From: Minisyncoccota bacterium | GTDB lineage: Bacteria; Patescibacteriota; Minisyncoccia; UBA6257; JAGOQP01 | Direction: 5' to 3' | DNA length: 35,709 nucleotides | Assembly (NCBI GenBank): GCA_017991375.1 | Contig: JAGOQP010000007.1 | Location: forward strand, 1 to 35,709 | Shown: positions 3,261 to 17,042 of the stretch, in pieces | Position numbering within the stretch: position 1 is the stretch's first letter | Layout of the letters: the number at the start of each line of letters is the position of its first letter | The notes under the pieces: model-generated | Seen by the model: the letters and a program-made list of their open reading frames with translations, nothing else | Database searches by the model: none | Told to the model about the DNA's origin: nothing | Position numbers and translations under genes: made by a program

Positions 3261-3303
3261 AAAAAAACCCGTCCTCGGCAGAGAGGGTCCACCAAGAGAC
3301 GGG
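3261..3303 (-). terminator. Terminator of the structured RNA upstream of rplY
   Basis: On the minus strand a CCCGTC/GACGGG stem (3298-3303 with 3268-3273) encloses a weaker inner pairing and is followed at once by seven T. It sits about 75 bases before the rplY start, so it ends a separate RNA or acts as an attenuator for rplY. Confidence 0.65.
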
Positions 3304-3456
3304 GGGTGAAGACGACTGTGGCGGCGTACTAAAAGAGCGTCTTTGGCGCGTACCCCTAGTAAGATGGGATGCACGTCCTCACAAAGAGGAGGTGGCGATG
3401 AGGTAGGCGCCATGTAAGCTCTCAAAAGTACTGAAAGGACCACAGTCACCCATACT
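3262..3456 (-). ncRNA. Structured ~195-nt RNA candidate (6S-like rod or rplY leader)
   Basis: Hand folding of the minus strand gives one long interrupted hairpin. Paired blocks, plus coordinates: 3446-3451 with 3304-3309 (GGGTGA/TCACCC); 3440-3445 with 3316-3321 (CTGTGG/CCACAG); 3427-3431 with 3326-3330; 3418-3422 with 3334-3338; 3407-3412 with 3344-3349 (TGGCGC/GCGCCA); 3402-3405 with 3351-3354; and a tip hairpin, 3376-3380 with 3386-3390. All blocks are nested. A promoter-like pair lies just upstream and a terminator just downstream. The rod with internal loops is 6S RNA-like in size and shape, but I recognise no diagnostic 6S sequence. A cis-acting rplY leader is the main alternative. Confidence 0.55.
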
Positions 3457-3462
3457 AAGAAG

Positions 3463-3491
3463 ATGCTAACATCAAATGCTGTTATTGGCAA
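3463..3491 (-). promoter_or_regulatory. Promoter candidate for the structured RNA
   Basis: On the minus strand TTGCCA (3486-3491) and TAGCAT (3463-3468) are 17 bases apart, inside the 3' end of the aldolase gene. The predicted start near 3456 is four to five bases before the outer closing stem of the RNA candidate. Confidence 0.45.
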
Positions 3492-16945: not shown

Positions 16946-17042
16946 ATGATAATAACTCTATTTCATATTCATAAAAAATTTTCCTTTTTCGTTATTAAAA
17001 CTACAAAGGACGCGGCGAAGGGTTATTCCTTGTAAATATAGC

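Follow-up and report, generated by a model that had tools for sequence, protein, structure and literature searches.

Gene context of the rod

The window, meaning the whole stretch of 35,709 nucleotides analysed here, carries a structured element between two genes of the minus strand. Upstream lies the gene for a class II fructose-bisphosphate aldolase (3472‒4380, PF01116), itself preceded on the minus strand by a transketolase pair and a PfkB kinase, and downstream lies rplY, which encodes ribosomal protein L25/TL5 (2538‒3185, PF14693 and PF01386). The aldolase-rplY gap of ~290 nt is filled by an interrupted rod of 148 nt (3304‒3451, minus strand), followed by an intrinsic terminator (3261‒3303, minus strand) with a 15-bp stem, one bulge, a 5-nt loop and a tract of 7 U. 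An intrinsic terminator had been called after the rod in the first-pass annotation, and the hairpin bears this out; it is a separate structure placed exactly at the end of the rod and the single terminator-like site between the two genes. Beyond rplY, at 2401‒2525 of the window, a near-perfect long hairpin (GACCCCTTTTTTCACGATCGTGAAAAAAGGGGTC) is followed by a second terminator-like hairpin.

A promoter-like pair, TTGCCA-17-TAGCAT, with TG before the −10 element and a 9/12 match, lies on the other side of the rod (3463‒3491, minus strand). The first-pass annotation had taken this pair for the promoter of the element, a claim that gained no statistical support, because one such pair was found where 2.0 are expected in shuffles of the region. 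The pair also falls inside the aldolase reading frame, where it overlaps the run-on C-terminus: the frame exceeds the conserved end in relatives by ~15 codons and extends into the promoter-like region (window 3472‒3520). A second promoter-like pair, TTGCTT-17-TAGGGT (3231‒3259, minus strand), is located just downstream of the terminator, in front of rplY. Of 10 relatives, 9 have the pattern TTG[AC]N[TA]-17-TANNNT no more than 160 nt before rplY (chance 0.8‒4% per sequence); in the remaining one, L010, the pair is readable by eye farther upstream of the gene. Since the rplY promoter lies 3′ of the terminator, a transcript of the rod, if made, would end before rplY starts.

An ORF of 91 aa (3234‒3509) spans the rod. 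The protein-coding reading was rejected: the ORF shows neither a Pfam match nor a visible ribosome-binding site, and its frame passes through the terminator. Elsewhere in the window, a gene for a LAGLIDADG-type protein (21651‒22331; PF14528, E 3e-8) adjoins tRNA-Leu(gag) and lies just downstream of a 107-aa ORF (22432‒22755) that looks like ribosomal protein L19.

Fold of the element

The minus strand of 3262‒3457, a unit of 196 nt that comprises the rod and the terminator, has a minimum free energy (MFE) of −82.1 kcal/mol. Dinucleotide shuffles of this unit reach −56.3 ± 4.3 kcal/mol on average (z −5.95), and none of 200 is as low. The 230-nt stretch likewise beats all of its shuffles (z −5.5), and the rod without the terminator gives z −5.15. 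In the MFE fold, the rod holds 44 pairs (26 GC, 15 AU and 3 GU) in about seven blocks of 13 (4+9), 5, 6, 6, 6 and 3+5 bp. Pair probabilities are mostly 0.9‒1.0, falling to 0.6‒0.8 in the outermost pairs. The nested pairing that the first-pass annotation had placed here on the minus strand is thus confirmed by the MFE fold, the pair probabilities and the shuffles, and both the nested pairing and the terminator are present beyond chance.

Such a z-score is shared by other parts of the window. On a window-wide grid of 195-nt stretches, about 20 of 712 have a z equal to or lower than that of the rod, which reflects the hairpins present in several intergenic regions; the rivalling stretches are mostly other intergenic inverted repeats. 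Strong intergenic inverted repeats are found at 17001‒17240 and 20321‒20840, where the fold z goes down to −8 to −10. The rod stands out by its GC content, 55% vs 44% in the flanking genes. The unit is single-copy, with nothing similar elsewhere in the genome, and is therefore not a dispersed repeat.

We also compared the stability of the two strands, with mixed results. The rod core is more stable as the opposite strand (−63.2 vs −57.9 kcal/mol for the minus strand), unlike the 6S RNAs of the family, among which the sense strand folds better in 11 of 13. In the terminator hairpin, by contrast, G-U pairs make the minus strand the more stable one (−22.4 vs −14.1 kcal/mol). For the whole unit, the terminator thus favours the minus strand and the rod core does not.

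The locus and the rod in relatives

In all seven aldolase-rplY intervals read from relatives, a pilin gene with an N-terminal FTLVE-type motif lies between the two genes; one of these pilin genes was scanned and carries a LamG domain (Laminin_G_3). The pilin gene is missing from the window, and a rearrangement may have replaced it. In a more distant genome (L003), the aldolase gene lies directly before rplY, ~60 nt apart, with no rod. The rod was found neither after the aldolase gene in relatives nor upstream of rplY, for which the 10 family relatives carrying this gene and six GTDB contig loci were inspected. In genus g6, the space that separates the pilin gene from rplY holds a different promoter-to-terminator element (L012:1270‒1430, and the same place in L011). 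It is 74% identical between these two genomes and absent elsewhere in the family; its sequence differs from the rod and matches only L011 and L012.

A DNA search returned no match to the rod in the 12 other genomes of the family, in phages or in plasmids. We then used R2, a covariance model built from the rod sequence alone. Run at E ≤ 10 on 244 order, 384 class and 13 family genomes, and with filters off on the syntenic loci, R2 gave no credible match other than the rod. The best R2 match outside the rod scores 12.7 bits (E 0.87) and falls in a non-syntenic coding stretch. As a control of sensitivity, R3, a model with the 6S RNA of this genome as its only sequence, recovers 15 of 15 homologs tested, 12 from the family and 3 from other families, all with an E-value of 3e-8 or lower; R3 was run on short loci instead of whole genomes, so that its E-values are not directly comparable with those of R2. 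The bit scores of R3, 33‒68, are far above the best of R2. Because the control recovers all 15, conservation of the rod of the kind seen in 6S RNA would have been detected.

A covariance search against Rfam, a check that the first-pass annotation had called for, found no credible family for the rod at the gathering threshold or at E ≤ 10; the best matches on the strand of the rod are terminator look-alikes, anti-hemB and MtlS. Judged by sequence comparison, the rod is an orphan among the family, order and class genomes searched, all of which lie outside its own genus. The searches yielded no homolog in which conserved pairs or compensatory changes could be compared. According to the first-pass annotation, its reading would be refuted if relatives did not conserve the paired blocks, and no conserved blocks were found at the level of family, order or class. 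The missing homologs speak against a conserved class of RNAs but are compatible with a lineage-specific RNA.

A short 6S RNA in the order

Across 200 genomes from the order, the Rfam model of 6S RNA (RF00013) has no match over its threshold. Four weak matches (25‒29 bits) nevertheless show a promoter, a closing stem, a central bubble, the GGGAG...CACCCACCUGG core and a terminator. From these four sub-threshold matches, we built a 6S model, R1, after trimming a few bubble bases from the seeds to keep the columns in register. Of the order's 244 genomes, 164 contain a match to R1; all 13 family members are among them, and one copy lies in the genome under study, on a contig other than the window (G000:C12:40445‒40565, minus strand, the same as L057:646‒766, minus strand; 37.6 bits). 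The 6S RNAs of the order are ~120 nt long (about 112‒127 nt from closing stem to closing stem), and every copy in the 200 genomes tested lies below the Rfam gathering score. The order's 6S genes (L057, L027‒L069) often have a tRNA gene within ~0.5 kb.

The core is common to the 13 copies of the family, and their promoters are mostly TTGACT-like. In the helices of these 13 copies, 8 of 22 pairs have changed on both sides, and the covariation score is 0.284, vs 0.164 in shuffles and 0.03‒0.10 when slid; the alignment was fitted to the model, and the score leans in favour for this reason. Rfam's own 6S model, below its threshold, recognises five of the family copies at the same place. These results settle that an order of Patescibacteria carries its own short canonical 6S RNA, which is missed by current Rfam thresholds. 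A full-text literature search, mostly without subscription journals, returned no paper on 6S RNA in Patescibacteria or the Candidate Phyla Radiation.

Discussion

The first-pass annotation had described a folded, terminator-ended RNA upstream of rplY that matches no Rfam family, and this description stands; the two identities it had offered, a 6S-like RNA or a ribosomal-protein leader, do not. With ~195 nt and the shape of a rod, the element is comparable to 6S/SsrS RNA (RF00013), but it has no central bubble and no GGGAG...CACCCACCUGG core, and the closing stem, large bubble and core that together mark a 6S RNA are not found in it. The Rfam 6S model misses the rod even at E ≤ 10, the order's own model R1 does not match the window at E ≤ 10, R3 does not match it either, and the genome has its separate canonical 6S RNA on another contig. 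We consider it extremely improbable that the rod is a divergent or second 6S RNA. Leaders of L25 (rplY) are known in Enterobacteria, according to PMC7247131, which cites Aseev et al. 2015, and the position upstream of rplY is what the rod has in common with them. An L25 leader, however, would lie on the same transcript as the gene it regulates, whereas the terminator (3303‒3261) here appears to precede the promoter of rplY (3259‒3231), which recurs in relatives. Unlike the Enterobacteria leader, the rod would end before the rplY promoter, and it lies upstream of no relative's rplY. An autoregulatory rplY leader ending in an attenuator can hardly be the nature of the rod. Bacterial SRP RNA (RF00169, RF01854) was also rejected: it shares the rod shape, but the element has no Rfam match and no GGAA-type apex, and a housekeeping RNA would not be absent from relatives, as the rod is. 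Separately, neither RF00169 nor RF01854 detects an SRP RNA at E ≤ 1 in any of the 13 family genomes, and the two models match 13 and 10 of 14 control genomes; the SRP RNA of the family is either very divergent or lost.

The rod is most likely either a lineage-specific terminated small RNA or a 3′ trailer of the aldolase operon. We tentatively prefer a lineage-specific small RNA gene of ~195 nt, to which the non-chance fold, the high pair probabilities and the strong terminator at the very end of the rod all point. The recurring promoter of rplY after the terminator closes the unit off from that gene, the G-U pairs of the terminator favour the minus strand, and the single copy and the 91-aa ORF with neither a Pfam match nor a visible ribosome-binding site are consistent with the same reading. 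The lack of homologs in 12 family, 244 order and 384 class genomes, the chance-level promoter match, the greater stability of the rod core as the opposite strand and the ~20 of 712 stretches that fold as well by z weigh against it. The chance-level promoter, lying within the aldolase frame, favours instead a trailer without an independent promoter, and so do the end of the aldolase gene at 3472, right at the rod and on the same strand, and the absence of any other terminator-like site before rplY. Such a trailer, which would stop transcription, protect the 3′ end of the mRNA and insulate rplY, is quite possible; however, a 148-nt rod is superfluous before a plain terminator, and relatives have no such rod after the aldolase gene. 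A further reading, in which the pilin gene was lost by a rearrangement that left the rod behind as an imperfect and inert inverted repeat, with only the terminator at work, is rather unlikely. The order aldolase, LamG pilin, rplY is kept in all seven intervals of relatives and broken here, the aldolase frame runs ~15 codons over its usual end and may thus mark the breakpoint, the two strands fold almost alike, and homologs are missing, all of which agree with an inert repeat. Against it, the mismatches cluster in loops that separate clean blocks of 5‒9 bp, the GC content departs from that of the flanking genes, and nothing similar exists elsewhere in the genome.

If the rod is a small RNA gene, transcription would start near 3456 on the minus strand, a position suggested by the weak promoter-like pair, and the transcript is predicted to fold into the rod. 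RNA polymerase would then stop at the terminator (3303‒3261), for which the sequence evidence is strong, before the promoter of rplY. The rod would probably resist decay from the 3′ end, and it might act in trans via a bound protein or its unpaired loops, at the place where relatives carry the LamG-pilin gene. This small RNA would share an intergenic position, a stable fold and a strong intrinsic terminator with orphan intergenic or 3′-UTR-derived bacterial sRNAs, from which its long single rod would set it apart. We regard as distinctly improbable the further proposal that a new trans-acting structured RNA, confined to one genus-level lineage of Patescibacteria, arose at the aldolase-rplY locus with the loss of the pilin gene, and that the rod is the first representative of it to be seen.

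The rod thus adds one more species-level candidate to the orphan small RNAs. The 6S RNA now known from the order removes a common misreading, in which unidentified rods are taken for 6S RNA, and makes global control of transcription by 6S RNA testable in these reduced genomes.
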